Of a DNA stretch of 64,000 bases, positions 1 to 20,377 are shown in pieces. Both the position numbers and the translations under genes were made by a program. The notes under the pieces were generated by a model. That model was not told the DNA's origin. It was given only the letters and a program-made list of their open reading frames with translations, and ran no database searches. Where the stretch lies: positions 1 through 64,000 of the forward strand of contig JADLHZ010000004.1 in NCBI GenBank assembly GCA_020848545.1, given 5' to 3'. Position 1 is the stretch's first letter; every line of letters begins with the position of its first letter. Origin of the DNA: Deltaproteobacteria bacterium. GTDB lineage: Bacteria; Myxococcota; JADLHZ01.

Positions 1-972
<972 letters not shown>

Positions 973-1054
973 CAATCCGCTTACAAAACATAAGCGCTAG
1001 AAATGTGTGCCCGACTTGTCGCTGTGTCCGATAACGGCGCAAGGGGCAACACAC

Positions 1055-2032
1055 ATGATGCAGCGAAAGACCCAGCTTTCGGCGCTCGCCTTCACCGCCA
1101 CTCTCTTCGCCGTCACAGGCGCGTCCGCGGTCACCTACGAGCCGAACGTCACCGGCATCAACAACTTCACCTTCGTCGATCGCATCACTTGGAAGGACTC
1201 GAAGGGCTTGGACCGCGAGCTCTTCTTCGCCAAGGACTATCCGAACTCGGTGGTCCCGAAGATCGCCGGCTACGTGACGCGCCTCTCGTGGCAGCCGGAC
1301 GCCGTCACCGCGCGCATCGTCGCCGAAGAAGATCCCGCGGCCATCAACACGAGCGCGACCCAAGGTTGGGGCACGAACGTGATGCACATGCACTTCAGCC
1401 AATACGGCGGCGTGCACCCCTACTTTCCGAACGAGACCGGCTTCTCCGCGACGACGACCAAGCGCGACGGCTTCAACTTCAACCAAGCGCCGATCTTCTT
1501 CGGCCCGCACCACATGATCTTCCGCGTGACCTACGGGCAGTACACGTCGCTCGTGAAGAACGGCGTCGACGACAGAAAGTCGGTCAACGTCACGATCGAT
1601 TGGTTCATCACCGACGGGCTCGACCACGCGATCTACGCGATCACGATCGACGCCACGCCAGGCTTCGCGAGCGACCCGGCGTCGTTCCGCAACAACACGC
1701 TCGCGCCCTACTCGTTCATGGCGCCGGCGTCGTGGAAGAACACGTTCGACTGGGCCGGCGGCAGCGACGGCCCGGACGGCCAGAGCTTCGGCGACATGCG
1801 CACGTTCATCACGAACAACATGGCAAACTGGACCTACGGCGGCACGAACACGATCCCGTTCGTCTGGCAGTGGGTCACGCCAACGAGCGGCCGCGGCAAC
1901 GCCGAAGCGGCGTTCATTCAGACGCAGACCTTCGCGCAGCATCCGGCCGGCGAAGGCTTCGCGCAAGGCAACCCGGCGGCCGGCACGCACATGCCGGTGT
2001 ATCCGGATCTGCAGGGCCAAGAGTACGCGTAA
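1055..2032 (+). CDS. Secreted protein, N-terminal part of an interrupted thrombospondin type 3 repeat protein
   Basis: I chose the ATG at 1055 (a second ATG follows directly) because AAGGGG lies at 1041-1046 at good spacing. It opens on a Sec-type signal peptide: KTQ, a hydrophobic stretch, then ASA before VTYEP, so cleavage after about residue 25 is likely. The remaining 300 residues are rich in Asn, Thr and aromatics; I do not recognise the fold. The frame stops at TAA 2030-2032, and the same frame reopens one codon later (CAA, then ATG at 2036). The next ORF has no signal peptide and begins mid-domain, so the two ORFs are best read as one ancestral secreted protein of about 1040 residues broken by a single stop. 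A natural two-gene arrangement or a base-call error cannot be excluded. Confidence 0.75.
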   Translation: MMQRKTQLSALAFTATLFAVTGASAVTYEPNVTGINNFTFVDRITWKDSKGLDRELFFAKDYPNSVVPKIAGYVTRLSWQPDAVTARIVAEEDPAAINTSATQGWGTNVMHMHFSQYGGVHPYFPNETGFSATTTKRDGFNFNQAPIFFGPHHMIFRVTYGQYTSLVKNGVDDRKSVNVTIDWFITDGLDHAIYAITIDATPGFASDPASFRNNTLAPYSFMAPASWKNTFDWAGGSDGPDGQSFGDMRTFITNNMANWTYGGTNTIPFVWQWVTPTSGRGNAEAAFIQTQTFAQHPAGEGFAQGNPAAGTHMPVYPDLQGQEYA

Positions 2033-2035
2033 CAA

Positions 2036-4183
2036 ATGAACTTCTTCGACAACTATCAGTCGAAGCGGCTCACCTGGGGCTCGCACTACGACTCGCTCTA
2101 CGGCGGCTACGGCGCGACGCCGGGCTATCAGAACTATTCACTCGCGCTGCACATCGGCAAGTACACGGACAATGGCGCGCTCGAGCTCTTGCAGGAGACG
2201 GAGAACATCCACAACGGCACGATCGCCGTCCAGGCGGTCGTCGGCACGCTCGTCACGGCCGGCCGTGAAGGCAACGGCAACCCGACGTCTAGGGCGTTCG
2301 TGCCGGCGGGCTACAACCACGTCTATCGAACGTGGGAAATCGTTGGCGCGAACAACAGCGCGACGATCGCGTTCGACACCGGCCTCGCCACCTACAAGAA
2401 GCCGATCTTCGTCCTGCGCGAGTTCTCGGGTACGACGAGCGCGCTCACGGTGAGCTTGAACGGCACCCCGCTCGACGCGAACGCGTACGCGGCGTCGGTC
2501 GACACGACCACACACAAGCTCTTCGTCACGCTCAGCGCGACCTTGAGCGGCAGCAACGTCGTCAGCATCGTGGCGCCGCCGGTCGATCCCGAAGGCGACA
2601 ATGACGGCGACGGCATCGCGAACGCGAGCGACAACTGCCCGTTCATCGCGAACGCATCGCAGACCGACACCGACGCCGACGCGCGCGGCGATGCCTGCGA
2701 CAATTGCCCGACGACGTCGAACCCGACGCAAGAAGACAGCGACGGCGACGGCCTCGGAGACGCGTGCGAGCCTCCTCCTCCTCCTCCTCCCCCTCCGCCG
2801 CCAGTGTGCACGCTCGGCGATCAAGACGGCGACACCGTTTGCGACAACAGCGACAACTGCACGGGCTGCTACAATCCCACGCAAACCGACGCAGACCAGG
2901 ACGGCCTCGGCGACTGCTGGCGCTGTGACTGGTGCAGCGGCCCGGGCACCGACGGCGACTGGGACGGCGTCTGCGACGGCGCTGACAACTGCCCGGGCAC
3001 GTGGAACCAGAGCCAGCAAGACTTGGACAGCGACGGCGTCGGCGACGCTTGCGACAACTGCGCCTTGATCGATAATTCGGACCAAGCCGATGCCGACGCC
3101 GACGGCCGCGGCAACCTCTGCGACAACTGCGGCGGCGTCGCGAACTTCAACCAAGCGGACGGCGACGCCGACGGCGTAGGCGACGTCTGCGACAACTGCG
3201 CGACGCTCTCGAACACGACGCAGACCGACTTCGACCTCGATGGCCGCGGCGACGTCTGCGACAACTGCACGACGCTGAGCAACAGCAACCAAATGGACAG
3301 CGACTCAGACGGGCGCGGCGACGTCTGCGACAACTGCGTCACCATCTCGAACGGCAACCAAGCCGATACGGACAACGACGGCCGCGGCAACGTCTGCGAC
3401 AACTGCGCGAGCGTCAGCAACGCGAGCCAGCAGGACACGGACGCGGACGGCGTCGGCAACGCGTGCGACAACTGCGCTTCCGTCGCGAACAGCAACCAAG
3501 CCGACGGCGACAACGACGGCCGCGGCAATGTTTGCGACAACTGCTCGACGATCGCGAACGCGGACCAAGCCGACAGCGACAACGACGGTCGCGGTAATGT
3601 GTGCGACAACTGCGCGACGGTCAGCAACGCCAATCAGCAGGACAGCGACAGCGACGGTCGCGGCAACGTCTGCGACAACTGCGTGTCGATCGCCAATGCG
3701 AACCAACAAGACAGCGACGGCGACGGCAAGGGCAACGTTTGCGACAACTGCGTGAGCGTCGCCGACGCGACCCAGTTCGACTCCGATCGCGACGGCGTGG
3801 GCAACGCGTGCGACAACTGCGCCAGTGTCGCCAACACGAACCAGGCGAACGCCGACGGAGACTCGCGCGGCGACGCCTGCGACACCTGTCCGAGCCTCGA
3901 CACCGCCGGCAACTACACCGACACGGACAAAGATGGCGTCGGCAACGCGTGTGACAACTGCGCCGGCGTCGCCAACGCCAGCCAGAGCGACGCGAACAAC
4001 AACTGGATCGGCGACGCGTGCGAAGCTTCGTACCCTGCAACCTGCAGCAACGGCGTGAAGAACGGCACCGAGACCGACGTCGATTGCGGCGGCAGCGGTT
4101 GTCCGCCGTGCGCGGCGCCGCTGAAGTGCAAGCTCAACTCCGACTGCCGCAGCTACAGTTGCATCAGCGGCGCTTGCCGCTAG
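2036..4183 (+). CDS. Thrombospondin type 3 repeat (Ca-binding) protein, C-terminal part of interrupted gene
   Basis: This 715-residue ORF is in the same frame as the upstream secreted ORF and separated from it only by TAA-CAA. Residues 1 to about 185 continue a beta-rich domain. About 18 thrombospondin type 3 repeats of roughly 23 residues follow, with Asp-rich Ca-binding loops and the recurrent CDNC motif. A poly-Pro linker of 11 residues follows the second repeat. The end is a Cys-rich module (DVDCGGSGCPPC, then six further Cys) often seen on myxobacterial surface proteins. TSP3 repeats bind calcium and form stiff extracellular spacers. There is no signal peptide of its own and only a weak purine stretch (AAGAG, 2019-2023) before ATG 2036, so export probably depends on read-through or the gene is inactive. 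Confidence 0.85.
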   Translation: MNFFDNYQSKRLTWGSHYDSLYGGYGATPGYQNYSLALHIGKYTDNGALELLQETENIHNGTIAVQAVVGTLVTAGREGNGNPTSRAFVPAGYNHVYRTWEIVGANNSATIAFDTGLATYKKPIFVLREFSGTTSALTVSLNGTPLDANAYAASVDTTTHKLFVTLSATLSGSNVVSIVAPPVDPEGDNDGDGIANASDNCPFIANASQTDTDADARGDACDNCPTTSNPTQEDSDGDGLGDACEPPPPPPPPPPPVCTLGDQDGDTVCDNSDNCTGCYNPTQTDADQDGLGDCWRCDWCSGPGTDGDWDGVCDGADNCPGTWNQSQQDLDSDGVGDACDNCALIDNSDQADADADGRGNLCDNCGGVANFNQADGDADGVGDVCDNCATLSNTTQTDFDLDGRGDVCDNCTTLSNSNQMDSDSDGRGDVCDNCVTISNGNQADTDNDGRGNVCDNCASVSNASQQDTDADGVGNACDNCASVANSNQADGDNDGRGNVCDNCSTIANADQADSDNDGRGNVCDNCATVSNANQQDSDSDGRGNVCDNCVSIANANQQDSDGDGKGNVCDNCVSVADATQFDSDRDGVGNACDNCASVANTNQANADGDSRGDACDTCPSLDTAGNYTDTDKDGVGNACDNCAGVANASQSDANNNWIGDACEASYPATCSNGVKNGTETDVDCGGSGCPPCAAPLKCKLNSDCRSYSCISGACR
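2597..4024 (+). repeat. Tandem array coding TSP3 repeats
   Basis: About 18 degenerate units of roughly 69 bases each encode one Asp-rich loop and a CDNC core. The most regular block, about 3050-3890, keeps the same purine-rich core in nearly every unit. Divergence between units is mostly non-synonymous in the residues after CDNC, which suggests an old array and not a recent amplification. The first two units are separated from the rest by the poly-Pro codon run near 2771-2803. Confidence 0.85.
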
Positions 4184-4249
4184 CGGACCCGTCCCGGAAA
4201 TTTTGAGAATTGCCGGCGCGGACCTATCCTCACAAGTCGAGGAGCATCG

Positions 4250-5233
4250 ATGCCGACGGCCGCGAAACGCGCGACGATTTCGATCGTCTCGCCGTGTTTC
4301 AACGAAGCAGAGGTCGTACCGCTCTTTTACGACGCGTTGATCGCTGTCCTCGCAGCCGTGCCCGACTATGGTTTCGAAATCGTTCTCGTGGACGACGGCA
4401 GCGCCGACGCCACCCTCAGTGTGCTGAACACAATCGCCGCCAAAGATCCGCGCGTCCGTGTGGCGTCTCTCTCACGCAACTTCGGCCACCAAATGGCGCT
4501 GACCGCCGGCATCGACCTCGCTTCTGGTGACGCCGTCATCGTCATGGACTGCGATCTCCAACATCCGCCCACGTTGATCCCCGAGCTCATCGTACAGTGG
4601 CGCGCCGGCAACGACATCGTGTCGGCCGTCCGCAAGGACACGACCGGGGCATCGCTATTCAAGAAAATTTCTTCGCGGGCGTTCTATTGGCTCATCAACG
4701 CATTCGGATCCGTGCACATCCCGAACGGCGTAGCGGACTTCGGTTTGCTCTCCCGACGCGCAGCGAATGAGCTCCGGCGCATGCGTGAGCATCATCGCTT
4801 CTTGCGCGGGATGATCTCGTGGTCCGGTTTTTCGCGTTCGCTGGTTCCCTACAAGGCTGATGCGCGCGCTGCTGGCCGCTCGAAGTACACGTTGTTCAAG
4901 ATGATCGGCCTGGCGCTCGACGCGGTGATCTCGTTTTCAACGGTGCCGCTCAGACTCGCGACGCGCGTCGGTTTCTCAGTGACCGTCGCCGCGTTCGCCT
5001 ATCTGACTTGGAACATGGTCAACGCGGTTCGCACGGGCAACTTTGCACCCGGTTGGGCGTCACTCATCGCGGTCACGATGCTGATGGGTGGGTCTCAGCT
5101 CATCTTCGTCGGGATCTTGGGCCAATACGTCGCGCGCATGTTCGAAGAGCTGAAGGATCGACCGCTCTACATCTTGAAACAAGATCCTCGCGTTACCTCG
5201 GCGTCGGCTGAGACGCTGCCCCCGCCTTCTTGA
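4250..5233 (+). CDS. GT2 glycosyltransferase, GtrB/DPM1-like, membrane anchored
   Basis: The 327-residue protein has a GT-A domain: SIVSPCFNEAE near residue 11, VDDGSAD near residue 48 and the metal-binding MDCDLQHPP near residue 100. Two membrane helices follow in the last 100 residues (VTVAAFAYLTWNMV and the region ending IFVGILGQYVARM). This is the layout of polyprenyl-phosphate glucose/mannose/Ara4FN transferases (GtrB, DPM1, ArnC families), which load a sugar on undecaprenyl phosphate at the inner membrane for later transfer outside. GAGGAG sits a few bases before the ATG. Its 3' end overlaps the convergent TPR gene by 41 bases. The sugar is unknown; several GT-C proteins in the window are candidate users of its product. 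Confidence 0.88.
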   Translation: MPTAAKRATISIVSPCFNEAEVVPLFYDALIAVLAAVPDYGFEIVLVDDGSADATLSVLNTIAAKDPRVRVASLSRNFGHQMALTAGIDLASGDAVIVMDCDLQHPPTLIPELIVQWRAGNDIVSAVRKDTTGASLFKKISSRAFYWLINAFGSVHIPNGVADFGLLSRRAANELRRMREHHRFLRGMISWSGFSRSLVPYKADARAAGRSKYTLFKMIGLALDAVISFSTVPLRLATRVGFSVTVAAFAYLTWNMVNAVRTGNFAPGWASLIAVTMLMGGSQLIFVGILGQYVARMFEELKDRPLYILKQDPRVTSASAETLPPPS

Positions 5234-7639: not shown

Positions 7640-8486
7640 TCCAACGCGAAACGCTGGCCCGCATCGCTTCGCTGCAAAGCACGGCTGCTTCTCTGCGATG
7701 CCAAGGCGAGAGGTAGTACGTCACGAGGTCGGGGCGCTCTGGCCAGATGCCCTTCTCGCTCGGATCGGCTTCGCCCGGGTGAAACAAGACCTCGACTTCG
7801 GCGCTGTGACCGACGCGGCGATGGACCCGAGCCAATGCCATGTCGAGCGCTTCAACGCTCATGCGACCGGACAAGAGCGCCCCAACGAACCAATCGTTTC
7901 GGCCGAGTTTTCTTCGATGCGGCGCGGCGAGCGCGTTCAAGAGAAAGTGTCTGCCGATGCCCGGGATCGTCTGCCGAGGCCCGAGGAAGAACGGCTCGTG
8001 GACAAGGCGCACGCCGTTGGCGCCGAGATCCCGGGCGATCTCGGCTGTGACGGCGAAGACATAGGGGATGTGATGCAGGTGTCCGTGACTATCGAGGCGC
8101 AGGGGCACATGCGGGCCAAGCGCGGTTCGGACACGGCTCACTTGCGCCGCTAGCTCGCGGCGAATTTGCGTACGGAGATCAGCCGACACACCCCGCGGAC
8201 CATACGCTCGCGTCAGAGACGCAAAGCTATTCGAGAGATCGCCGCGATGATCGAGGAGACGACTCACCTCCGCGCGCGGGCTCAACGGCGGCTGCTCGAC
8301 GAGGTTCAAGTGCACCGACACGGCCACGTGCGGCCTGGCTTTTAGTGCGACGATCGCGTCGTCGAAGCCGGCGCCGTTCGCGACGACGCTCACACTATTG
8401 AGCGCGCCCTCGTCGATGCAGCGCGTGATGGCCCGGGTGACTCCCGGTGAAATTCCAAAATCATCGGCGTGAATGCGCAGATGCAT
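7623..8486 (-). CDS. YdjC/ChbG-like carbohydrate deacetylase
   Basis: The 287-residue protein begins MHLRIHADDFG, the metal-binding Asp-Asp of the YdjC (PF04794) family. It also has the second metal motif DSHGHLHHIP near residue 131. The fold is a TIM-barrel-like carbohydrate esterase that removes N-acetyl groups from sugars such as diacetylchitobiose. In glycan clusters it is usually thought to act on lipid-linked or free acetamido sugars. The ATG overlaps the stop of the upstream membrane protein by one base (TGATG), so the genes are co-translated. There is no signal peptide, which argues for cytoplasmic action. Confidence 0.85.
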   Translation of the reverse strand: MHLRIHADDFGISPGVTRAITRCIDEGALNSVSVVANGAGFDDAIVALKARPHVAVSVHLNLVEQPPLSPRAEVSRLLDHRGDLSNSFASLTRAYGPRGVSADLRTQIRRELAAQVSRVRTALGPHVPLRLDSHGHLHHIPYVFAVTAEIARDLGANGVRLVHEPFFLGPRQTIPGIGRHFLLNALAAPHRRKLGRNDWFVGALLSGRMSVEALDMALARVHRRVGHSAEVEVLFHPGEADPSEKGIWPERPDLVTYYLSPWHRREAAVLCSEAMRASVSRWTMPSH

Positions 8487-11476
8487 CAGTAGAGATTCAC
8501 GAACGCGGGCAGCGCATCCGGAGGAACTTCGAGCGCGCGGTCGACACTTTTTCCGTGGTTGAAAGAAACGTAAATCTTCCGTGCTTCAGCGTCCCAGTAG
8601 GCGAGATCGAGGCGCCGGTCGCCGTCATAGTCGTGAGGCAATGGGACGCCGGCGCCCGTGCCGAATGTCCAACGCTCGACAGCCCCGGACTTTGGATCGC
8701 GGCGATACCAAGACTGATCCTTCGGCCGCCAAACGACGAGCTCATCCAACCCGTCGCCGTCGTAGTCGCCCGGCACGAGGATGTCACCGGGAGCGCCGAA
8801 CTGAATCGTGACCAACGGTTTGGCTTCGGCGCCGATCTGCGACAACGTCCAGTTACCGGTCGCCGTGTCGTAAGCTCCGAGCGTTTGAGCGCCGGCGGCG
8901 AAATGACCCACCACCGGCACCGTACTCAGCCCACTCGGTGTCGCTGGGCCTTTGAGGTTCCCATTGTCCCGGAGCCACTCCCCGCTTGCGCGACGCCAAG
9001 CGATGACTTCCTGCGTGCCCTTGCCTTCGACATCTACGACGAGCGGAACTTCGAGATCCCAGGTCCAACGCCGGCGCTCTTTGCTCCAAACGCCGTCCAC
9101 GCCCGCCGTGGACCAATACCAAGCGCTGTATTCGGTGAGATCCGACATCTTCACGCCGCGCGAAAAATAGCTATCCGCCATGCGCGCAACGGTGAAGCCT
9201 TGCGCTTGCCCAAAGTGGCCGCAGAGCACCAGCGCGTAATCGTCGACGAAGTCGCGAGGCAGCGCTTGGCGACGATCGCCGGTCAAGACTTCTTGATGCG
9301 CACGATCGTAGAACGAGATCGGGCTGCTCGGTTCACCTTGTAGCACGACGCGCGGACGCCAGTAGCGTTCGATGCCGGCATCGACGTCGCGCGTAGTGCC
9401 GGCGATTCTGTAGATATTGCGATCGCCCGCGCGAATCGTGGGGAGGAAGATCTTTTCGGCGACCAGCTTCGCGAAGCGGCTGCGCACGATGAGCGGCATT
9501 CGCTCGAGATCGTTCGAGCTCTCGTAGTACCAAAGAGCCCCCGAATCGGCTTCCGCGCCAGGACGCAAGCGCGCCATCCGTCCGCTCTTGCGCACCTGCT
9601 CGGCCACGAGCGTCGCGTCGATGAGAAAGCTCCCTGTTCGTTCGTAGCGCCGTGGCGTGACGCTGAAGATGCTGCCGCTGTGGATCTGGAGCTCGTCGAG
9701 GAAGCCGCGCCGCGATTCGCTGTCCCACGCCACGTCGAAATAGACATCGCGATTCGACTGCTTGAGCCCTGCTAGCTTCTGACCGATCTCGACGACGTCC
9801 GCGTACGCTGGCAGTGGGAACGGCGACTCGTAAAAGCCGAGCCACTCATTCTCTTTGGAAAACGCAGCGGCGTAGACGTGAATGCAAGGTACGATGGCCA
9901 TCGCAAGGAGCGCAGGCGCCACGATCCACCAACGCCAAAGCCGCACGGAGAGTGCGAGCGCGAAGGCAGACAAGATCGCGAGCGCGAGGTGGGACACGAA
10001 GAAGAACTTCGCTATTTCGGTGTACTCTTCGATCGCGCGAGCGCCGTAGGAATAGTAGAGAAACTGCGCCGGCAAATACGACACGATCAGCATCACGAGA
10101 AAATAGTGAAACACGAAGCGACGTGGCTCGGCGCTGAGACGTCGAGAGCGACGCCAGGCGACCATCGCGACAACAGCGAGCACGAGCGGCAAACCAAAGC
10201 CGGCGACGTTCCAATTGATAAATCCGAGGACACCGCCCTCGGAGTAGCCAAAGCCGGGCCGAACGCTCAGCGTGGTCAAGTCGAGGCCGTAGAAGTCACC
10301 GCGAGACAAGACGCCGCCATGGGCAAACGCGAAGAAAGCAACGAGAACGGTGAACAACGCGGCATCGGTGAAACCGCGCAGGGTCGGCCGGCTCACCCAG
10401 CGTCCCGCCAAGAGCAGCCCTGCCGTGACTGCGCTCACCGCCCCGAACACCGCATGACACAAGAAGAGGAGCCCGAACGTGAACGCACAAGCCGCTAGCA
10501 GAGACCGCCGTTCGCTCCGCATCCACGTGCCGAGCAGCCACGCGGCAAAGATCGCGACCGCGACTCCGAGCGCGACCGCATGCTGTTGCAGTTGATTAGC
10601 GATGTCCCAAGGCAGATTCGAATTGCTCCCATCGAGATTGCGCAAGTGAAAGACCGCTGTGCGCCCTGCTTCCAGCAGATTCGCAAAGTACCCGCGCGAA
10701 GCGTCATAGTGATGCACGAGCTGCGCTGGACTGCCTTGACGCGGGTAGCCCGAGTAGGTCTCGACCCAGGGGACGTAGAGCCACGCTAGACTGCCGCCAA
10801 GCAGCACCGAGAAGCTTCCCCAAAAACAGGCAAGCCAACGAAAGCCGATCTGCGCGAGCCAGAAAAAGAGAAACAGAAAGACGAACAGGTGAAGGGCCAC
10901 GGTCACGACGTCGACGCTGACGTTCGGCGAGAGGCGTAGAGTCCACGTCAACGCGCCGGCCAGCATAGTGACCGCATAGTGGTACTTGATCGGCACATCC
11001 GGAAAGGCGTTGTGCCGCGGCGGGAACAGCCCTTCCGCGAACTGGCTCGGCGCCGTCAGGTGAATCGCGCTCGACGCGACCTCGTCCCAATAGGGAGTGC
11101 TTACGGCGAACAACCATTGCGGAACGCCGATGGCCATTGCGATAGGAATCAACGGCGCCCACGTGCGCCACTGCACGAAAAGCGCGCGCGCCGAAAGCTC
11201 TTCACGGCGCGCAGCGATCAGCCAAACGCAAGTCGCCAGGTTGAAGGCAAACCAAGCTCCCATAGCGATAATCGAGTTCTGCGTGATCCTTCCGATCAAG
11301 TTGACGACGCCGAGCCAAGCGACCAAGGCGCCGCCGATCGCGGCGAGGACGCGCAAGAACGGAGCTGTGTCTTTCAAGCGTCCGACGGCCCACCACATCG
11401 GGAGGAAAAAGACGAAGGTGACGGCGGCGAGCAACCCGCACCGAGCGACGAACATGATCACGCTCTGCTCGTTCAT
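8486..11476 (-). CDS. Polytopic GT-C-like membrane protein with C-terminal FG-GAP-like repeats
   Basis: The 996-residue protein has about 12 hydrophobic segments in residues 1-550. An acidic motif in an early loop (TPYWDEV) and KYHYAVTML before the next helix resemble catalytic loops of GT-C lipid-linked-sugar transferases. Residues about 560-800 form a soluble domain. Three FG-GAP/VCBS-like blades follow: VVDVEGKGTQEVIAWRR, PGDYDGDGLDELVVWRP and PHDYDGDRRLDLAYWD, the latter two with Ca-binding DxDGDG-type loops. FG-GAP blades normally bind Ca and partners outside the cell, so the C terminus should be periplasmic. The family is unassigned. A related YHY motif occurs in the membrane protein at 58705-60573. 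It is part of a run of minus-strand genes with a 7-base gap to the methyltransferase upstream. Confidence 0.75.
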   Translation of the reverse strand: MNEQSVIMFVARCGLLAAVTFVFFLPMWWAVGRLKDTAPFLRVLAAIGGALVAWLGVVNLIGRITQNSIIAMGAWFAFNLATCVWLIAARREELSARALFVQWRTWAPLIPIAMAIGVPQWLFAVSTPYWDEVASSAIHLTAPSQFAEGLFPPRHNAFPDVPIKYHYAVTMLAGALTWTLRLSPNVSVDVVTVALHLFVFLFLFFWLAQIGFRWLACFWGSFSVLLGGSLAWLYVPWVETYSGYPRQGSPAQLVHHYDASRGYFANLLEAGRTAVFHLRNLDGSNSNLPWDIANQLQQHAVALGVAVAIFAAWLLGTWMRSERRSLLAACAFTFGLLFLCHAVFGAVSAVTAGLLLAGRWVSRPTLRGFTDAALFTVLVAFFAFAHGGVLSRGDFYGLDLTTLSVRPGFGYSEGGVLGFINWNVAGFGLPLVLAVVAMVAWRRSRRLSAEPRRFVFHYFLVMLIVSYLPAQFLYYSYGARAIEEYTEIAKFFFVSHLALAILSAFALALSVRLWRWWIVAPALLAMAIVPCIHVYAAAFSKENEWLGFYESPFPLPAYADVVEIGQKLAGLKQSNRDVYFDVAWDSESRRGFLDELQIHSGSIFSVTPRRYERTGSFLIDATLVAEQVRKSGRMARLRPGAEADSGALWYYESSNDLERMPLIVRSRFAKLVAEKIFLPTIRAGDRNIYRIAGTTRDVDAGIERYWRPRVVLQGEPSSPISFYDRAHQEVLTGDRRQALPRDFVDDYALVLCGHFGQAQGFTVARMADSYFSRGVKMSDLTEYSAWYWSTAGVDGVWSKERRRWTWDLEVPLVVDVEGKGTQEVIAWRRASGEWLRDNGNLKGPATPSGLSTVPVVGHFAAGAQTLGAYDTATGNWTLSQIGAEAKPLVTIQFGAPGDILVPGDYDGDGLDELVVWRPKDQSWYRRDPKSGAVERWTFGTGAGVPLPHDYDGDRRLDLAYWDAEARKIYVSFNHGKSVDRALEVPPDALPAFVNLY

Positions 11477-13711: not shown

Positions 13712-15553
13712 GTGCGGGAAAAAATACCCCTCGCCCGCGTTGCGAGCTACGACTCCCCTGTGTCCAAAGCGTCTCAGAAACGCGCGCGGCCGAAGACCGC
13801 CGGAGATCCCGATGTTTCTTCGTCTCTGTCGGCGCCGAAGAGCGACCTCGCCCGCCCGAGCACGGCGTGGATCATCGCCGCGGTCATTGCCGTCGCGGTC
13901 GGCCTCGCCTATGCGAATCACTTCGACAACACCTTTCACTTCGACGATCACCACGTCATCCAGAACAACCCGGACATCCGCCAGCTCGCGAACATTCCGC
14001 GCTTCTTCACCGGCGACGCCGTGTTCAGCGTGCTGGCGCCGAACCGCACCTACCGGCCGCTGCTCTCGACCACCTTCGCGATCGACTACGCGATCGCCGG
14101 CGGCTACACGCCGCGCACCTACCAAGTGCACAGCTTCCTTTGGTTCGTGGCGCAGCTCGCGTTGATGGTGCTCCTGTTCCGAAAGCTGCTCGCCACGATC
14201 ACGCCGCACGCGACGCTGCTCTCGCTCGCCGCTGTCGCCTTCTACGGCCTACATCCGGTGAACGCCGAGACCGTCAACTACATCTGCCAGCGCTCGGACA
14301 TCATCTCGGCCGTCGGCGCCGTGCTCGCGCTCATATTGTTCATCCGCCGGCCGCAACCTTGGGGCTGGCACCTCGTCGCGATGCTCGTCGCGTGCTTCGG
14401 CAAGCAGACGACGGTGATGTTCGCGCCGACGCTCGCCGTCTACGTGTATCTGTTCACCGACGGCTCACGCATGAAGCGCGCAGACACGGCGCTGCGCATG
14501 GCGTGGCCGGCGCTGCTCCTCGCCGGCATCTTCTACATCGTGCAAGGCAAGCTCACGCCGAGCTCGTTCTCTGCGAGCGACACGCCGGCGTGGCAATACG
14601 CGCTCACGCAGCCGGCGGTGATCGCGCACTACTTCCGCTCGTTCTTCTGGGCGGACGACCTGAGCGCCGACTCCGACTTCGAGCTCGTCAGCGGCCTCTC
14701 TGATCCGCGCGTGTGGCTCGGCCTCGGCTTCTTGGCGCTCCTCGGCATGGCGTTCTCGTGGTGCAGCAAGCGCGAAGAATGGCGCGCCGTCGCCTTCGGC
14801 CTCGCCTGGTTCGTGCTCGCGCTCTTGCCGACGTCGAGCGTCATTCCGCTCGCCGAGCCGATGAACGATCACCGCATGTTCTACCCCTTCGTCGGCCTCG
14901 TGCTGGCGTTGGCTGCCGCGCTCTACCTCGTGATGGAGCGCGGCCGCGGCGCGGATCGGGCGATCCGCACCCTGCTCCTCTGCCTGATCCCGGTAGGGAC
15001 GCTCGCGGCGGCGATGACCGTGCAGCGCAATCAAGTCTGGAAGACCGAAGAGTCGCTCTGGTTCGACACCGCGAAAAAGAGCCCGAAGAACGGCCGCGGC
15101 CTCATGAACTACGGCTTGTCGCAGATGGCGGTCGGCCGCTACGAGATCGCGCTCGACTACTTCGAGCGCGCGCGCCAGCTCTTGCCGCAATACGCAAACG
15201 CCGAAGTGAACGTAGCCATCGCGCAGAACGGGCTCGGCAAGCCGGACGCCGAGATCGAGAGCCACTTCAAGCGCGCGGTCACGCTCTCGGTGCGGGCACC
15301 GATCGGCCACACTTTCTACGCATCGTGGCTGACGAAGCGAAAGCGCTACGCCGACGCGATCTCTGTGCTCGAACAGGGCTTGAAGATCGACCGCGCGAGC
15401 TACGAGATCTACATGCAGCTCATGGCCAACTACGAAGCGCAGGGCGACTGGGGCAAGGTGGCGAGCACTGCGAAGGCCGCGCTCACGCAGTACCCGAACA
15501 ACGCCGAGCTGCAGCGCCGCCTCGCCGAAGCCGAACAGAAGGCGCCGCATTGA
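13712..15553 (+). CDS. TMTC-like GT-C membrane protein with C-terminal TPRs
   Basis: The protein is about 613 residues. After a basic N-terminal tail, about ten membrane segments begin at AWIIAAVIAVAVGLAYA. The first loop carries an acidic FHFDDHHVIQNNP motif. The segment HPVNAETVNYICQRSDI matches the conserved loop of eukaryotic TMTC1-4 O-mannosyltransferases and bacterial relatives. The last 180 residues are TPR-like (LMNYGLSQMAVGRYEIALDYFERAR and following). TMTC proteins transfer a sugar from a polyprenyl-phosphate donor to exported protein; a protein O-glycosylation role here is inference. The longest start is GTG 13712, 44 bases from the divergent gene. GTG 13760 would leave more promoter room. 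The stop overlaps the next gene (TTGA). Confidence 0.82.
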   Translation: MREKIPLARVASYDSPVSKASQKRARPKTAGDPDVSSSLSAPKSDLARPSTAWIIAAVIAVAVGLAYANHFDNTFHFDDHHVIQNNPDIRQLANIPRFFTGDAVFSVLAPNRTYRPLLSTTFAIDYAIAGGYTPRTYQVHSFLWFVAQLALMVLLFRKLLATITPHATLLSLAAVAFYGLHPVNAETVNYICQRSDIISAVGAVLALILFIRRPQPWGWHLVAMLVACFGKQTTVMFAPTLAVYVYLFTDGSRMKRADTALRMAWPALLLAGIFYIVQGKLTPSSFSASDTPAWQYALTQPAVIAHYFRSFFWADDLSADSDFELVSGLSDPRVWLGLGFLALLGMAFSWCSKREEWRAVAFGLAWFVLALLPTSSVIPLAEPMNDHRMFYPFVGLVLALAAALYLVMERGRGADRAIRTLLLCLIPVGTLAAAMTVQRNQVWKTEESLWFDTAKKSPKNGRGLMNYGLSQMAVGRYEIALDYFERARQLLPQYANAEVNVAIAQNGLGKPDAEIESHFKRAVTLSVRAPIGHTFYASWLTKRKRYADAISVLEQGLKIDRASYEIYMQLMANYEAQGDWGKVASTAKAALTQYPNNAELQRRLAEAEQKAPH

Positions 15554-16521
15554 CCACGCCGCTTCGCCAGGCGCGCGTGGGCGTCGTCATCCCCTGCTTT
15601 CGCGTGCGGGACCAGGTGCTCAGCGTGATCGCGGGCATCGGCCCCGAGGTGTCGCGCATTTACGTGGTCGACGATGGCTGCCCCGAGCATTCCGGCGCGC
15701 TCGTCAGCGAACGCTGCAAGGATCCGCGCGTCACCGTCTTGCGTCACGAGAAGAACAAGGGCGTCGGCGGCGCCGTCGTCACGGGCTACAAGCGCGGCCT
15801 CGAAGACGGCTGCACGATCCTCGTGAAGGTCGACGGCGACGGGCAGATGGATCCGGCGTTGATCCCGCGCTTCTTGAAGCCGATCCTCGCCGGCGCCGCC
15901 GACTACACGAAGGGCAACCGCTTCTTCGAGCTCGCGCCGCTGCGAAAGATGCCGGCCGTGCGCCTCTTCGGCAACGCCGGCCTCTCGTTCGTCAACAAGC
16001 TGAGCTCCGGCTACTGGGACGTGATGGATCCGACGAACGGCTACACGGCGATCCACGCGAGCGCGCTCCGCCGCCTGCCGCTCGACAAGCTCGCCGAGCG
16101 TTACTTCTTCGAGTCCGACATGCTCTTTCAGCTCGGCCTCGTCCGCGCCGTCGTGCGCGACGTGCCGATGCAGCCACGCTACGCCGGTGAAGCGAGCAGC
16201 CTGCGGATTTCACGCGTGCTCTTCAGCTTTCCGCCGAAGTACCTTTGGCGCTTCGTGCAGCGGATCTTCTTCATGTACTTCATCCGCGACTTCAACGTGG
16301 GGACGCTCGAGATCTGCGCCGGTGTGCCTTCGCTGCTCTTCGGCGTCGGCTTCGGCCTGTGGAAATGGATCGAGGCGTACCAAACCGCGCAGCCGACGCC
16401 GACCGGCACGATCATGCTCGCCACGCTGCCGACGCTGCTCGGCAGTCAGCTCCTGCTCAGTGCGCTCATGTTCGACGTGAGCCACGTGCCGCGCATCCCG
16501 CTGGCCGAGAACGATCCGTGA
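15550..16521 (+). CDS. GT2 glycosyltransferase, polyprenyl-phosphate sugar synthase-like
   Basis: The start is TTG 15550, overlapping the TMTC stop as TTGA, with AGAAGG seven bases upstream. The GT-A domain shows VVIPCFRVRDQV, YVVDDGCPEHSG near residue 40 and the metal motif VKVDGDGQMDP near residue 95. Two C-terminal helices follow (VPSLLFGVGFGLWKW and LATLPTLLGSQLLLSALMF). The layout is that of DPM1/GtrB-type enzymes that make polyprenyl-phosphate sugars. Its position directly behind the TMTC-like gene suggests it supplies the lipid-linked sugar that TMTC uses, since TMTC proteins take dolichyl-phosphate mannose in eukaryotes. Confidence 0.87.
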   Translation: MTTPLRQARVGVVIPCFRVRDQVLSVIAGIGPEVSRIYVVDDGCPEHSGALVSERCKDPRVTVLRHEKNKGVGGAVVTGYKRGLEDGCTILVKVDGDGQMDPALIPRFLKPILAGAADYTKGNRFFELAPLRKMPAVRLFGNAGLSFVNKLSSGYWDVMDPTNGYTAIHASALRRLPLDKLAERYFFESDMLFQLGLVRAVVRDVPMQPRYAGEASSLRISRVLFSFPPKYLWRFVQRIFFMYFIRDFNVGTLEICAGVPSLLFGVGFGLWKWIEAYQTAQPTPTGTIMLATLPTLLGSQLLLSALMFDVSHVPRIPLAENDP

Positions 16522-16913
16522 GCACCCTCGCCGAAGAAGGCCGCTACCTCGCGCGCTTCCTATTCGCGGCGCCGCTCGCCGAAGCGGTGATCGATCACTA
16601 CGTGGCCGCGCACGTGCATTTGTTCACCGGCGCGATCACACGGCCGGTCGACGTCGCGAAGATCGTCGAGCGCCGCTTGGACGCCGAGGCCGTGGAGCTC
16701 GTGTTGCGCCGGCGCGATCCGATGAACGCGCTGTCGCAGAAGATGCAGATCCTCGTCTACGTCGCCGAAGCGCGGCGCGAGCTCTATCCTTTGTTCGTCT
16801 CCGAGCACGCGCGGCCGTTCACCGCATTCGTGCGGCTCGCGTGGGGCGTCGTGCGCGCGGCGTACAAGCTCGTGAAGGGTCGCTACCTCTTGAGCGCGCA
16901 CCGTGACCTATGA
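16518..16913 (+). CDS. Unknown 131-residue protein coupled to GMC-like flavoprotein
   Basis: GTG 16518 overlaps the upstream stop (GTGA), and the 3' end overlaps the next start by 11 bases, so it is translated as part of one operon. The product is Cys-free, Arg-rich and mostly helical, with an amphipathic stretch FVRLAWGVVRAAYKLVKGRY near the end and no clear membrane helix or signal peptide. I do not recognise the family. Its position just before a GMC-like oxidoreductase recalls the small subunit of membrane gluconate dehydrogenase-type complexes, but I see no sequence motif that proves this. Confidence 0.7.
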   Translation: MSTLAEEGRYLARFLFAAPLAEAVIDHYVAAHVHLFTGAITRPVDVAKIVERRLDAEAVELVLRRRDPMNALSQKMQILVYVAEARRELYPLFVSEHARPFTAFVRLAWGVVRAAYKLVKGRYLLSAHRDL

Positions 16914-18477
16914 AGTGATCATCGTCGGCGCCGGCGCGTCGGGCACCTTCGCGGCGATGCAATTGCGCGGCAAGAAGGTGCTCGTCGTCGACGTCGGCAA
17001 CACGCCATCCGCCGGCGCCGCCGCGCTGCAGGGGAACCTCTACGATCTGCGCCGCGCGCGCGAAGAGATGCACGACGAGCTCATCGGCGAAGCCTACGAG
17101 AGCCTGCACAACATCAGCCACGAGTACCTGAGCCCGAAGCTCAAGGCGCCGCTCTTGCGTTACGTCGTCGACGAGACCGCCGCGTTGAGCCCGATCGTGA
17201 GCGACGGCTTCTACACCGTGACGAGCCACGCCCGCGGCGGCATGGCGAACGCATGGGGAGCCGGCGTGTTTCCGTTCACCGACCGCGAGCTGAAAGGCTT
17301 TCCGATCACCGCCTCCGATCTGGCGCCGTACTATCGCGCGCTGACGGAGCACATCGGCATCTCCGGCACGACGGACGATCTCGCCGCAGATTTTCCGGAC
17401 AACGGCGCGCTGCAACCGCCGCTCGCCCTGAGCCGCATCGGCACGGACTTGCTCTCGCGTTACGAGCAGCGCCGGAGCGCCGTGCAGCGCCGCGGCATTC
17501 GCATCGGCCGCTCGCGCCTCGCGGTGCTGACGCGCGAGCATCACGGGCGCGCCGCGTGCGAGTACGACAACCTCGAGTTCTTCAAGCCGCACATCCCGGC
17601 CGTCTATAATCCGGCGTACACCTTGGACGAGCTCGTGCGCGACGGGCAGATCGACTACCGGCCGCGATCGCTCGCGCTGTCGTACGAAGAGCGCGAAGAC
17701 GGCGTGGCGCTGCGCGTGCGCGATCTGACGACGCAGACCGAGCACACGGTCACCGCGAAGAAGATCGTGATCGCCGCCGGCACCTTGAACTCGTCGCGCC
17801 TCGTGCTGCGTTCGCGCAACGATCTCTCTGCGCGGCTGCCGCTCCTCGACAACAAGATCTCGTACGTGCCGTTTTTGCAGCCGTGGCTCATCGGCGGCGC
17901 GCTCGAAGAGAAGAGCTTCGCCACGGCGCAGCTGTCGGTCGTGTACGAGCGCGATCCGGCGCCCTTGTTCTCGACCTTCTACGGACTCACGGGGCCGCTG
18001 CGCAGCGACTACTTGCTCAAGTTCCCGCTCACGCTGCGCGACAACATCGCCGCCGCGAAGTACCTGTCACCGGCGATGGCGATCGTGCAGGTGTTCTATC
18101 CGGACGTGCCGCACCCCGAGAACCACGTGTCGTTGAACGCCGGCGGCGCGCTGCAGATCGCCTACGGCCGCCAGGAGGCCGAGCTCATCGAGCGCGAGCT
18201 CATCCGCGCGTTCTTGCGCTTGGGCTACTTCAGCCACCCGTCGCTGTGTCAGTTCCCGACGGCGGGCAACAGCTTTCACTACGCCGGCACGCTGCCGATG
18301 CAGCGCGAGCCCGGGCCGTACCAGACGCACGCGAGCGGCAGGCTGAGCGACACGCGGCACGTGTACATCGCCGACGGCGCCGCGTTGACGTGGCTGCCGT
18401 CGAAGAACCTCACGTTCACGCTGATGGCGAACGCGATGCGCGTCGCCGATCACGTGCGGAAGGATCTCGGTGGCTGA
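16903..18477 (+). CDS. GMC-like FAD-dependent oxidoreductase
   Basis: The 524-residue protein begins YEVIIVGAGASGTFAAM, a dinucleotide-binding GxGxxG motif, and ends with the second FAD contact region YIADGAALTWLPSKNLT before a final helix. This is the order seen in GMC oxidoreductases (GMC_oxred_C, often with His/Asn catalysis). The middle segment KKIVIAAGTLNSSRLV is the typical GMC signature 2-like region. Members oxidise alcohols or sugars. It begins with GTG inside the preceding small gene, has no signal peptide and is followed with 8 bases overlap by an SDR. A role in oxidising a glycan or its lipid carrier is inference. Confidence 0.85.
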   Translation: MTYEVIIVGAGASGTFAAMQLRGKKVLVVDVGNTPSAGAAALQGNLYDLRRAREEMHDELIGEAYESLHNISHEYLSPKLKAPLLRYVVDETAALSPIVSDGFYTVTSHARGGMANAWGAGVFPFTDRELKGFPITASDLAPYYRALTEHIGISGTTDDLAADFPDNGALQPPLALSRIGTDLLSRYEQRRSAVQRRGIRIGRSRLAVLTREHHGRAACEYDNLEFFKPHIPAVYNPAYTLDELVRDGQIDYRPRSLALSYEEREDGVALRVRDLTTQTEHTVTAKKIVIAAGTLNSSRLVLRSRNDLSARLPLLDNKISYVPFLQPWLIGGALEEKSFATAQLSVVYERDPAPLFSTFYGLTGPLRSDYLLKFPLTLRDNIAAAKYLSPAMAIVQVFYPDVPHPENHVSLNAGGALQIAYGRQEAELIERELIRAFLRLGYFSHPSLCQFPTAGNSFHYAGTLPMQREPGPYQTHASGRLSDTRHVYIADGAALTWLPSKNLTFTLMANAMRVADHVRKDLGG

Positions 18478-19324
18478 GATCTTCATCACCGGCATCTCGG
18501 GCCTCATCGGCGCGGCGTTGGATGAGCGTCTTCGCGCCGACGGCCACAGCATCACCGGCTCCGCGCGCCCCGAAAATCGCGCGAAGGTGCAGCAGCGCAT
18601 GCCGGACGCGCGCATCGTCGGCCACACCCTCGGAGATCCCATCGACGTCTCCGGCGCCGGCGCGGTGATCCACTGCGCGCACGACTTCACGAAGGGCCAC
18701 CGGCGCCAGAACGTGGAAGGAACGCAGCGCATCGTCGAGGGCAGCGGCAAAGCGCACCACGTCTTTCTCTCTTCGTACTCCGCACACGGCGGAGCCAAGA
18801 GCGAGTACGGCGCCGTGAAGCTCGAGCTCGAACGCTGGTTCCTTGCGCGCGGCCAGACGATCGTGCGGGCCGGCCTCGTGATCGGCCCCGGCGGCCTGTT
18901 CTTGCGCTTGCGCCGATCGATCGAGCGGTCGCCGGTGCTGCCGATGCTCGACGGCGGGAGGAAGCGCGTCGCCGTCATCGCGATCGCGGATCTGTGCGGG
19001 GCGATCTCGGCGATCGTGGCTGGGGGCGAGCGCGGCGCGTTCAACCTCGCCAACGCCGGGCTCGTCACGATGGCGGAGATCGTCGAAGCGATCGAACGCG
19101 CGGCGGACAAGCATCCGTTCCACGTGCCGATCCCGGCGAAGTGGCTGCTCTTTCCGCTGGCGATCGCCGAGACGCTGCGCCTGCCGCTGCCGGTGACGCG
19201 CGAGAACGTGAAGGGCTACATCGCCAACGACGCCGGCGGGTTCGCTTCGGATCTCCTACGCTTCGTGCCTGCGCCGCAGACGCTCGCGCAAATGATCGAG
19301 AGCAGCGACGCCGCACGACGCTGA
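18470..19324 (+). CDS. NAD(P)-dependent epimerase/dehydratase-type SDR
   Basis: The start is GTG 18470 overlapping the oxidoreductase gene by 8 bases. The 284-residue protein starts AEIFITGISGLIGAAL, a TGxxGxxG Rossmann motif of extended SDRs, and shows SSYSAHGGAKSEYGAVKLE with the YxxxK catalytic pair. A later region RAGLVIGPGG is typical of nucleoside-diphosphate-sugar epimerases. Together with the GMC-like enzyme it could carry out a two-step oxidation/reduction of a sugar. The substrate is not deducible. The gene ends just before a non-coding repeat block. Confidence 0.85.
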   Translation: MAEIFITGISGLIGAALDERLRADGHSITGSARPENRAKVQQRMPDARIVGHTLGDPIDVSGAGAVIHCAHDFTKGHRRQNVEGTQRIVEGSGKAHHVFLSSYSAHGGAKSEYGAVKLELERWFLARGQTIVRAGLVIGPGGLFLRLRRSIERSPVLPMLDGGRKRVAVIAIADLCGAISAIVAGGERGAFNLANAGLVTMAEIVEAIERAADKHPFHVPIPAKWLLFPLAIAETLRLPLPVTRENVKGYIANDAGGFASDLLRFVPAPQTLAQMIESSDAARR

Positions 19325-19545
19325 CACGAGCCCCATCGAGCCCTGGCTCGAAACCCTGGCCCCAAAACCCTGGCCCTGACCGAACGCCCTGGCCGCGCTC
19401 GCGAGCCTGAGCCTGAACGTGGCCCTGGCCTCGGACATCGCTCGAGCGGCCAGGGCCAGGGCCAGGGCCAAGCTCAGGCTCGCGAGCGCGGCCAGGGTGA
19501 TGGGCCAGGGTGATGGGCCAGGGCGATGGGCCAGGGCTGGCGTCC
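19325..19545. repeat. Intergenic block of CCAGGG-based inverted and tandem repeats
   Basis: Non-coding, between two plus-strand genes. A perfect 26-base inverted repeat pairs 19387-19412 with 19472-19497 (core GCTCGCGAGC), and both arms are flanked inside by runs of GGCCCTGG/CCAGGG. A 13-base unit GGCCAGGGTGATG then repeats about four times at 19490-19540, the last copy shortened. The RNA would fold into a long hairpin, so transcription termination or mRNA protection of the upstream operon is possible. No protein-like frame is present. Confidence 0.85.
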
Positions 19546-19576
19546 ATCCTCATTTTCGTGGACAGGTTCCCACCGC

Positions 19577-20377
19577 ATGAGCGTCCTCGAACGCGTCGTC
19601 AGCGCCCTGCGCGAGCCGCGACTCGGAAGCACCGAGGTCGACACCGACGATCTCATCCGCGTGCACCGCGAGGTCCTCGGCGAGAAGCCGATGCTGCGCG
19701 AAGTCTTCCGCGAGCTCTACGCCTACTGTTGGGAAACGGATCAGCGCCTGTTCTCGGGCGACGGCCTGCGCATCGAGCTCGGCGCCGGCGTGTCGTTGTT
19801 CAAGAAGTTCTACCCCGACGTCGTCTCCACCGACATCAAGCGCGCGCCGCACTTGGATCGCGTGCTCGACGCGCAGAACATGGATCTCGCGGACCACTCC
19901 GTGCGCGCCGTCTACGGCATCAACTGCTTTCACCACTTCCCGGATCCCGAGCGCTTCTTCGCTGAATTGCAGCGCGTGCTCGTCCCGGGCGGCGGCTGTG
20001 TGCTCATCGAGCCGTTCCATGGCCCGCTCGCCGGCTTCTTCTATCGCAACATGTTCAAGACCGAGCACTTCAACAAGGCGCAGAAGGAGTGGACCGGCAG
20101 CGACATGGGCGTGATGACCGGCGCGAACCAGGCGCTGTCGCACATCGTGTTCGTCCGCGATCGCGCGCGCTTCGAGAGCCGCTTTCCGTCGCTCGAGATC
20201 GTGCGCGAGGATCGCTTGCCGAGCTACGTGCGCTACATCTTGAGCGGTGGTTTGAATTTTCGCTCGCTCGTGCCCGGTGCGCTCGCGCCGGCGTTGAAGG
20301 GAATCGAAACCCTGCTGAAGCCGGCGGACAAGCTGCTCGCGCTGCACCATGCGATCGTGCTGCGGAAACGCCCTTAA
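19577..20377 (+). CDS. Class I SAM-dependent methyltransferase
   Basis: The 266-residue protein is taken from ATG 19577 because upstream codons run into the repeat block and are not protein-like. It has motif I IELGAGVSLFKKF near residue 70, NCFHHFPDPERFF near residue 120 and LQRVLVPGGGCVLIEP, the usual Methyltransf_11 order. A C-terminal region rich in Leu/Ala could be peripheral to the membrane. The gene converges with the Sel1 peptidase gene and overlaps it by 4 bases. Substrate unknown; glycan or lipid methylation fits the surroundings. Confidence 0.82.
   Translation: MSVLERVVSALREPRLGSTEVDTDDLIRVHREVLGEKPMLREVFRELYAYCWETDQRLFSGDGLRIELGAGVSLFKKFYPDVVSTDIKRAPHLDRVLDAQNMDLADHSVRAVYGINCFHHFPDPERFFAELQRVLVPGGGCVLIEPFHGPLAGFFYRNMFKTEHFNKAQKEWTGSDMGVMTGANQALSHIVFVRDRARFESRFPSLEIVREDRLPSYVRYILSGGLNFRSLVPGALAPALKGIETLLKPADKLLALHHAIVLRKRP

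Follow-up and report, generated by a model that had tools for sequence, protein, structure and literature searches.

What does a bacterial operon make when it joins a putative membrane glycosyltransferase and a lipid-sugar synthase to a flavin-dependent oxidoreductase, a reductase and a small protein of an undescribed family? The question is raised by five overlapping open reading frames (ORFs) on the + strand, positions 13712-19324, of a 64,000-nucleotide stretch of DNA (the window; contig JADLHZ010000004.1, assembly GCA_020848545.1) from the 8.0-Mb genome of a Deltaproteobacteria bacterium assigned to the Myxococcota. On balance, we favor the answer that its genes serve to make a modified polyprenyl-phosphate sugar and to use it, with a GMC flavoprotein and a short-chain dehydrogenase/reductase (SDR) editing the sugar on its carrier before transfer by a GT-C glycosyltransferase. 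An earlier interpretation made from the letters alone (below, the sequence-only reading) held that the genes form one unit, and this was confirmed by overlaps of 4, 4, 11 and 8 bp in gene order. Because the set is conserved elsewhere, the grouping is not due to chance. We gave the 131-aa protein the working name SML. The features are as follows.

13712 (GTG)-15553, +: TMTC-like multi-spanning protein with C-terminal TPRs, presumed GT-C glycosyltransferase (topology, TPRs)
15550 (TTG)-16521, +: GT2 of the polyprenyl-phosphate sugar synthase type, 323 aa, hydrophobic C-terminal segments (PF00535, PDB match)
16518 (GTG)-16913, +: SML, 131 aa, all-helical, undescribed family, proposed membrane adaptor for GMC and SDR (homologs, model)
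16815-16898, +: C-terminal helix of SML, residues 100-127 (predicted model, homolog hydropathy)
16903 (GTG)-18477, +: GMC flavoprotein of the sugar oxidase/dehydrogenase type (profile and fold matches)
18277-18279, +: GMC His459 of HYAGTLPM, predicted catalytic base (invariant; aligns with His of 6a2u)
18406-18408, +: GMC Asn502 of NLTFTLMANAMR, predicted second catalytic residue (invariant; aligns with Asn of 6a2u)
18470 (GTG)-19324, +: SDR of the extended/epimerase type (PF01370; motifs intact)

An alternative in-frame GTG start of the TMTC-like gene lies at 13758.

SML, GMC and SDR form the conserved core

The sequence-only reading had proposed a neighborhood search for TMTC, GMC and SDR. 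A scan of genome contigs with the GMC protein gave ten loci, and profile searches then added further ones (designated here by L numbers). SML and GMC co-occur in 26 loci, the window included, with an SDR within 0.5 kb in 24 of them; they are distributed over Nitrospirota, Aminicenantes, Pseudomonadota, Bdellovibrionota and the window's own phylum. When the 29 loci with a GMC above 300 bits are considered, SDR is present in 27, both exceptions being contigs shorter than 4 kb. It adjoins GMC or lies at most 0.5 kb away in 26, among them four with SDR fused to SML, and one further locus has it at a distance of 4.4 kb. SML was found in 24 of the 29, and the 26 SML loci comprise these 24 together with L017, where SML is found on the other strand beyond SDR, and L092, where GMC is broken. 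The SDR-SML fusions occur in L015, L058, L082 and L084. Some sequences entered the last SML profile, yet profiles built without them had already detected them, and both halves of the L058 fusion were detected by the first-round profiles. The genomes behind some loci are close relatives (L009/L010; L078-L080). GMC profile tallies, which include more divergent GMC relatives, amounted to 7 of 296 genomes in the phylum of L014, 11 of 297 in that of L010, 6 of 399 in that of L015 and 11 of 192 in that of L017.

Pairwise distances of the three proteins are closely correlated (r 0.88 for GMC-SDR, 0.86 for GMC-SML and 0.86 for SDR-SML; Mantel p 0.001), and GT2 distances correlate less with the triple (r 0.56-0.58). 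The SML-GMC-SDR triple is thus inherited as a unit, with the GT2 more exchangeable. The set is conserved beyond this genome and so survives the refutation test that the sequence-only reading had set, but its core is SML, GMC and SDR, not TMTC, GMC and SDR. The TMTC-like gene was rejected as a core member, as other loci have different GT-C proteins. A phage origin of the module was also rejected, since a scan of viral contigs gave no relatives.

Properties of the core proteins

The match of the flavoprotein to Pfam was weak (GMC_oxred_C at 23.6 bits, below the 24.6-bit cut-off), and its profile matched FAD-glucose dehydrogenase (FAD-GDH; 5e-21), fructose dehydrogenase (FDH) and pyranose oxidase. 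The best fold matches of its AlphaFold model were FAD-GDH, FDH, C-glucosyl oxidoreductase/C-glycoside oxidase and pyranose oxidases. The GMC fold, the FAD motif and the catalytic His/Asn pair are all present; His459 and Asn502 are invariant across the GMC alignment, and both align with the His and Asn of FAD-GDH 6a2u. By sequence and model, the protein is assigned to the sugar-oxidizing GMC type. The SDR matches PF01370 (E 3.1e-9) and has kept TGxxGxxG and YxxxK (Tyr113/Lys117).

SML had no match in Pfam, among PDB sequences or among PDB folds (best fold E 2.2). Its predicted model is all-helical and confident (pLDDT 83.6), and the alignment contains the invariant residues F16, E60, R64, L72, Y81, E84, K120 and G121. 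Among 24 homologs, 10 have a C-terminal helix whose hydrophobicity would suffice for a transmembrane (TM) span (mean hydropathy 2.2-2.7 over 19 residues). That the helix is TM-like in many homologs fits an adaptor gathering GMC and SDR at the membrane, and we give roughly even chances to SML bringing these soluble proteins to a membrane-embedded substrate in this way. SML was not detected by profile in L113, L118 and L122 nor in the SDRs of the Rhizobium/L115 clusters; the latter SDRs carry a helical C-terminal extension with a hydrophobic end, equivalent to the SML helix by position only. No evident signal peptide was seen in the sequences of SML, GMC or SDR.

The GT2 and the TMTC-like protein

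The GT2 of the operon, which had been called GtrB/DPM1-like, matches PF00535 (Pfam, E 3.6e-15), the AglJ and PpgS family models and a single PDB entry, the Pyrococcus furiosus dolichol-phosphate-mannose synthase (DPMS) 5mlz (E 1.1e-12). These matches bear out the proposal and assign it to the polyprenyl/dolichyl-phosphate-sugar synthase type.

The name TMTC-like held as a description of architecture: about nine hydrophobic segments, an acidic FHFDDHH motif after the first, and TPR_14/TPR_2 at the C-terminus. It did not hold as a family assignment. The membrane half gave no GT-C or TMTC match in Pfam (TPR families only) and no match to a PDB chain, so that "TMTC" is here an architectural label. 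No such partner was seen at any other module locus, the GT-C partner varying between genomes. A second TMTC-like protein, 41% identical, is encoded in the same genome (contig C95:9695-10999, L129) with one in-frame TGA.

Gene neighborhoods of the module

A GT2 of the polyprenyl-phosphate-sugar-synthase type lies within 2.5 kb of GMC in 15 of the 26 SML loci, a density 2.9-fold that of the outer flanks (p 0.006). The models matched by these neighboring GT2s are PgfS, with scores of up to 305 bits, AglJ/ArnC, and PpgS, which scored 219 bits in L088, where GMC and SDR occur but no SML was detectable. PMT_2-type GT-C genes are also enriched about 18-fold: 13 of them lie no more than 9 kb from a module (9 of 27 modules have at least one), where the genome-wide density predicts 0.7. 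In this comparison, genomes and loci are not fully independent, and glycan clusters are generally rich in such genes. The combination of GT2, GT-C and the triple recurs with other GT-C proteins in L010, L014, L016 and L082. A flippase-type LPG_synthase_TM protein is encoded in L015 and in Rhizobium plasmid clusters (L131).

A small DUF2304 membrane protein directly follows the polyprenyl-phosphate GT2 in three loci (L010:7208-7570, L013:8693-9103, L088:8893-9255), an arrangement as in mycobacterial PpgS/Rv3632, and is likely to be its partner. GMC relatives were found on 55 Rhizobium plasmids, and plasmids of Rhizobium phaseoli carry a related cluster. On that of Rhizobium sp. TAL182 (L131:43-11509), a nine-gene cluster contains heptose-precursor genes, an AglJ-like GT2, the LPG_synthase_TM protein, an SDR and GMC. 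The heptose part of the Rhizobium clusters, assigned by family similarity below curated cut-offs, comprises phosphoheptose isomerase (GmhA), an HddA-like kinase and a nucleotidyltransferase/GmhB-like fusion (GmhB/HddC-like); the remainder encodes the AglJ-like GT2, a 656-aa membrane protein, the flippase-type protein, the SDR with its C-terminal helical extension, and GMC. From its gene content, such a cluster looks like a full route from NDP-heptose (NDP, nucleoside diphosphate) to a lipid-linked, redox-edited and flipped sugar, in organisms that can be cultured.

Divergent GMC relatives in L087:7511-10367, L089:6588-9637 and L090:7936-10789 adjoin one conserved gene, which encodes a DegT/DnrJ/EryC1 aminotransferase in L087 and L090 and falls into the same sequence cluster in L089. 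This arrangement suggests a sister pathway in which a sugar hydroxyl would be oxidized and then aminated.

Proposed pathway and alternative explanations

In the pathway that we propose, the GT2 would load a sugar from an NDP-sugar onto polyprenyl phosphate at the cytoplasmic face of the membrane. GMC and SDR, kept at the membrane by the C-terminal helix of SML, would then act in turn: GMC would oxidize a secondary hydroxyl of the lipid-linked sugar to a ketone, C2 or C3 being most typical among its relatives, and SDR would use NAD(P)H to reduce the ketone from the opposite face, yielding the epimer. The lipid-linked sugar would be flipped, in some loci by a dedicated flippase, and the GT-C protein (TMTC-like here, PMT_2-like elsewhere) would pass it to an outer acceptor. 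The sequence-only reading had the sugar or its carrier oxidized and reduced before or after transfer. An oxidation and then a reduction would suit the GMC/SDR pair, and the timing can be narrowed: because the core proteins have no evident signal peptides, the redox step should be cytoplasmic and ahead of transfer. Judged from the neighboring genes, a lipid-linked sugar is the likely substrate of the redox pair and, given such a substrate, epimerization is quite likely. The proposed O-glycosylation of a protein acceptor, a label drawn from architecture like that of TMTC, is not supported as yet; the acceptor could just as well be a polysaccharide or a lipid.

Several observations weigh against this pathway. 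Eleven of the 26 SML loci have no polyprenyl-phosphate-sugar-synthase GT2 within 2.5 kb of GMC, so that the lipid-linked substrate is deduced from neighbors, and many loci belong to clusters of the polysaccharide type, in which GT2 and GT-C genes are commonplace. GMC is patchy in the window's own phylum (3 of 195 genomes by profile search), and its model is of moderate quality (pLDDT 71.6, pTM 0.81). The C-terminal helix of SML is amphipathic in the window and its subgroup, with no clear TM segment, and the window operon contains no flippase gene.

The substrate of GMC and SDR could instead be a nucleotide sugar, or a sugar phosphate in solution, that has yet to be loaded on the lipid, SML being a mere oligomerization subunit. 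Epimerase-family SDRs normally use NDP-sugars, NDP-sugar genes occur in some loci (the heptose genes of L131) and a GT2 is not adjacent in every locus. We nevertheless consider this unlikely: NDP-sugar epimerases need no separate flavin oxidase, SML bears a C-terminal TM or amphipathic helix, and the surrounding genes are of lipid-sugar and GT-C types. A net change without an epimer, in which GMC would make a keto-sugar for another enzyme and SDR would catalyze a different step, seems a little less probable still. It is suggested by the DegT-type aminotransferases beside the divergent GMC relatives of L087 and L090, which would aminate such a ketone, but this gene cluster (c17) was not seen in SML-clade loci, and there SDR is the partner in every locus except L092 with its broken GMC, sometimes even fused to SML.

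That SML-GMC-SDR is a unit to which the TMTC-like protein and GT2 are unrelated neighbors in this genome would agree with the weaker correlation of GT2 distances (r 0.57) and with the confinement of the TMTC-like partner to this locus among those compared. The joining of all five genes by overlaps of 4 to 11 bp and the recurrence of GT2, GT-C and the triple with other GT-C proteins (L010, L014, L016, L082) make such a loose assembly very improbable. Least probable of all is that the enzymes oxidize the polyprenol carrier itself to an aldehyde and reduce it to the alcohol again, as in eukaryotic dolichol synthesis. A membrane-associating SML in a polyprenyl-phosphate setting would suit it, but a phosphorylated carrier has no free alcohol, the nearest GMC structures are sugar oxidases using secondary alcohols, and no double-bond reductase was recognized in the loci.

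Comparison with known systems

Editing of a lipid-linked sugar ahead of transfer has a precedent in the mycobacterial pair DprE1/DprE2, which convert decaprenyl-phosphate-ribose to decaprenyl-phosphate-arabinose; an FAD oxidase and an SDR reductase are thought to epimerize the polyprenyl-phosphate sugar ahead of GT-C transfer (PMC11127046). By analogy, an oxidase and a reductase with no net redox change are proposed here too, and an SDR with YxxxK stands beside the oxidase. DprE1 belongs to the VAO/PCMH flavoprotein family, whereas the window oxidase lacks FAD_binding_4 and ALO domains (Pfam) and is GMC by sequence and fold. Furthermore, the donor derives from phosphoribosyl pyrophosphate (PRPP) in the DprE1/DprE2 system and, as proposed, from a DPMS-type GT2 here, and SML has no counterpart there.

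Three-component periplasmic glycosylation systems (GtrA/GtrB/Gtr; Citrobacter O1/O2 PPPRS-MATE-GT136 with the SDR ORF13) combine a lipid-linked donor, a flippase, a GT-C and an optional epimerase (PMC11127046). The window operon shares the GtrB/DPMS-type GT2 with them, but GMC and SML are absent there; the epimerases named in that paper are confined to the DprE1/E2 and ORF13 types, and its authors are aware of no further O-polysaccharide side-chain epimerases than their own SDR and the DprE1/E2 analogy. The gamma-alpha complexes of FAD-GDH and fructose dehydrogenase (6a2u, 8grj, 7w2j) and the C-glycoside/pyranose oxidases share the GMC fold and catalytic His/Asn. A small protein is encoded directly upstream of the GMC subunit in the gamma-alpha complexes as well, but the module has no evident signal peptide and no cytochrome, and SML gives no match to the gamma subunit by sequence or fold. 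SML as a gluconate_2-dh3-like gamma subunit was rejected, having no Pfam, PDB-sequence or fold match. Eukaryotic TMTC O-mannosyltransferases (GT105) show the same order of a GT-C-like membrane part and TPRs, with an acidic motif after the first TM segment (motif described in PMC6801728), but the window protein has no detectable family match by sequence and other loci use PMT_2-like proteins. A PpgS-family GT2 adjoins DUF2304 in L010 and L088, resembling the mycobacterial polyprenyl-phosphate-GalNAc synthase, in which PpgS is paired with Rv3632 (DUF2304). That system is not known to have a redox pair.

We found no description in the open-access literature of the five-gene set, in agreement with the sequence-only reading, nor of a GMC/SDR pair acting on lipid-linked sugars. 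Until now, the main known case of editing a carrier-bound sugar has been the cell wall pathway in tuberculosis bacteria, and such editing probably occurs here with an unrelated oxidase. A wider proposal, to which we give somewhat less than even chances, is that a hydroxyl of polyprenyl-phosphate sugars is inverted by a second machine, SML-GMC-SDR, which evolved independently, has probably spread over several phyla by horizontal transfer and feeds interchangeable GT-C transferases, with SML as a new family of membrane adaptors. If true, redox editing of lipid-linked sugars would be a general bacterial strategy rather than a mycobacterial specialty and would have evolved twice, with different flavoproteins. 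Nitrospira, Aminicenantes, the window's host and rhizobia would be expected to carry rare sugars in their envelopes, a function would be assigned to an unclassified small protein family, and a new route would be available to epimeric lipid-sugar donors for glycan synthesis.

Other features of the window

A methyltransferase gene at 19526-20377 was excluded as a sixth member of the operon, being separated from SDR by a 200-bp gap with a 13-bp tandem repeat. GGCCAGGG-rich tandem repeats occupy 19320-19540, between the two genes. Methyltransferases (sequence cluster c3) recur around the module at other loci. A 996-aa protein encoded at 8486-11476 on the - strand, adjoining a methyltransferase, has about 12 predicted TM segments, C-terminal FG-GAP repeats and a GT-C-like topology; it had no GT family match in Pfam. 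At 28-5233, a collagen-repeat protein, an unknown ORF, a thrombospondin type 3 repeat protein and a GtrB-like GT2 follow in series, possibly representing surface glycoproteins with their own lipid-sugar synthase.

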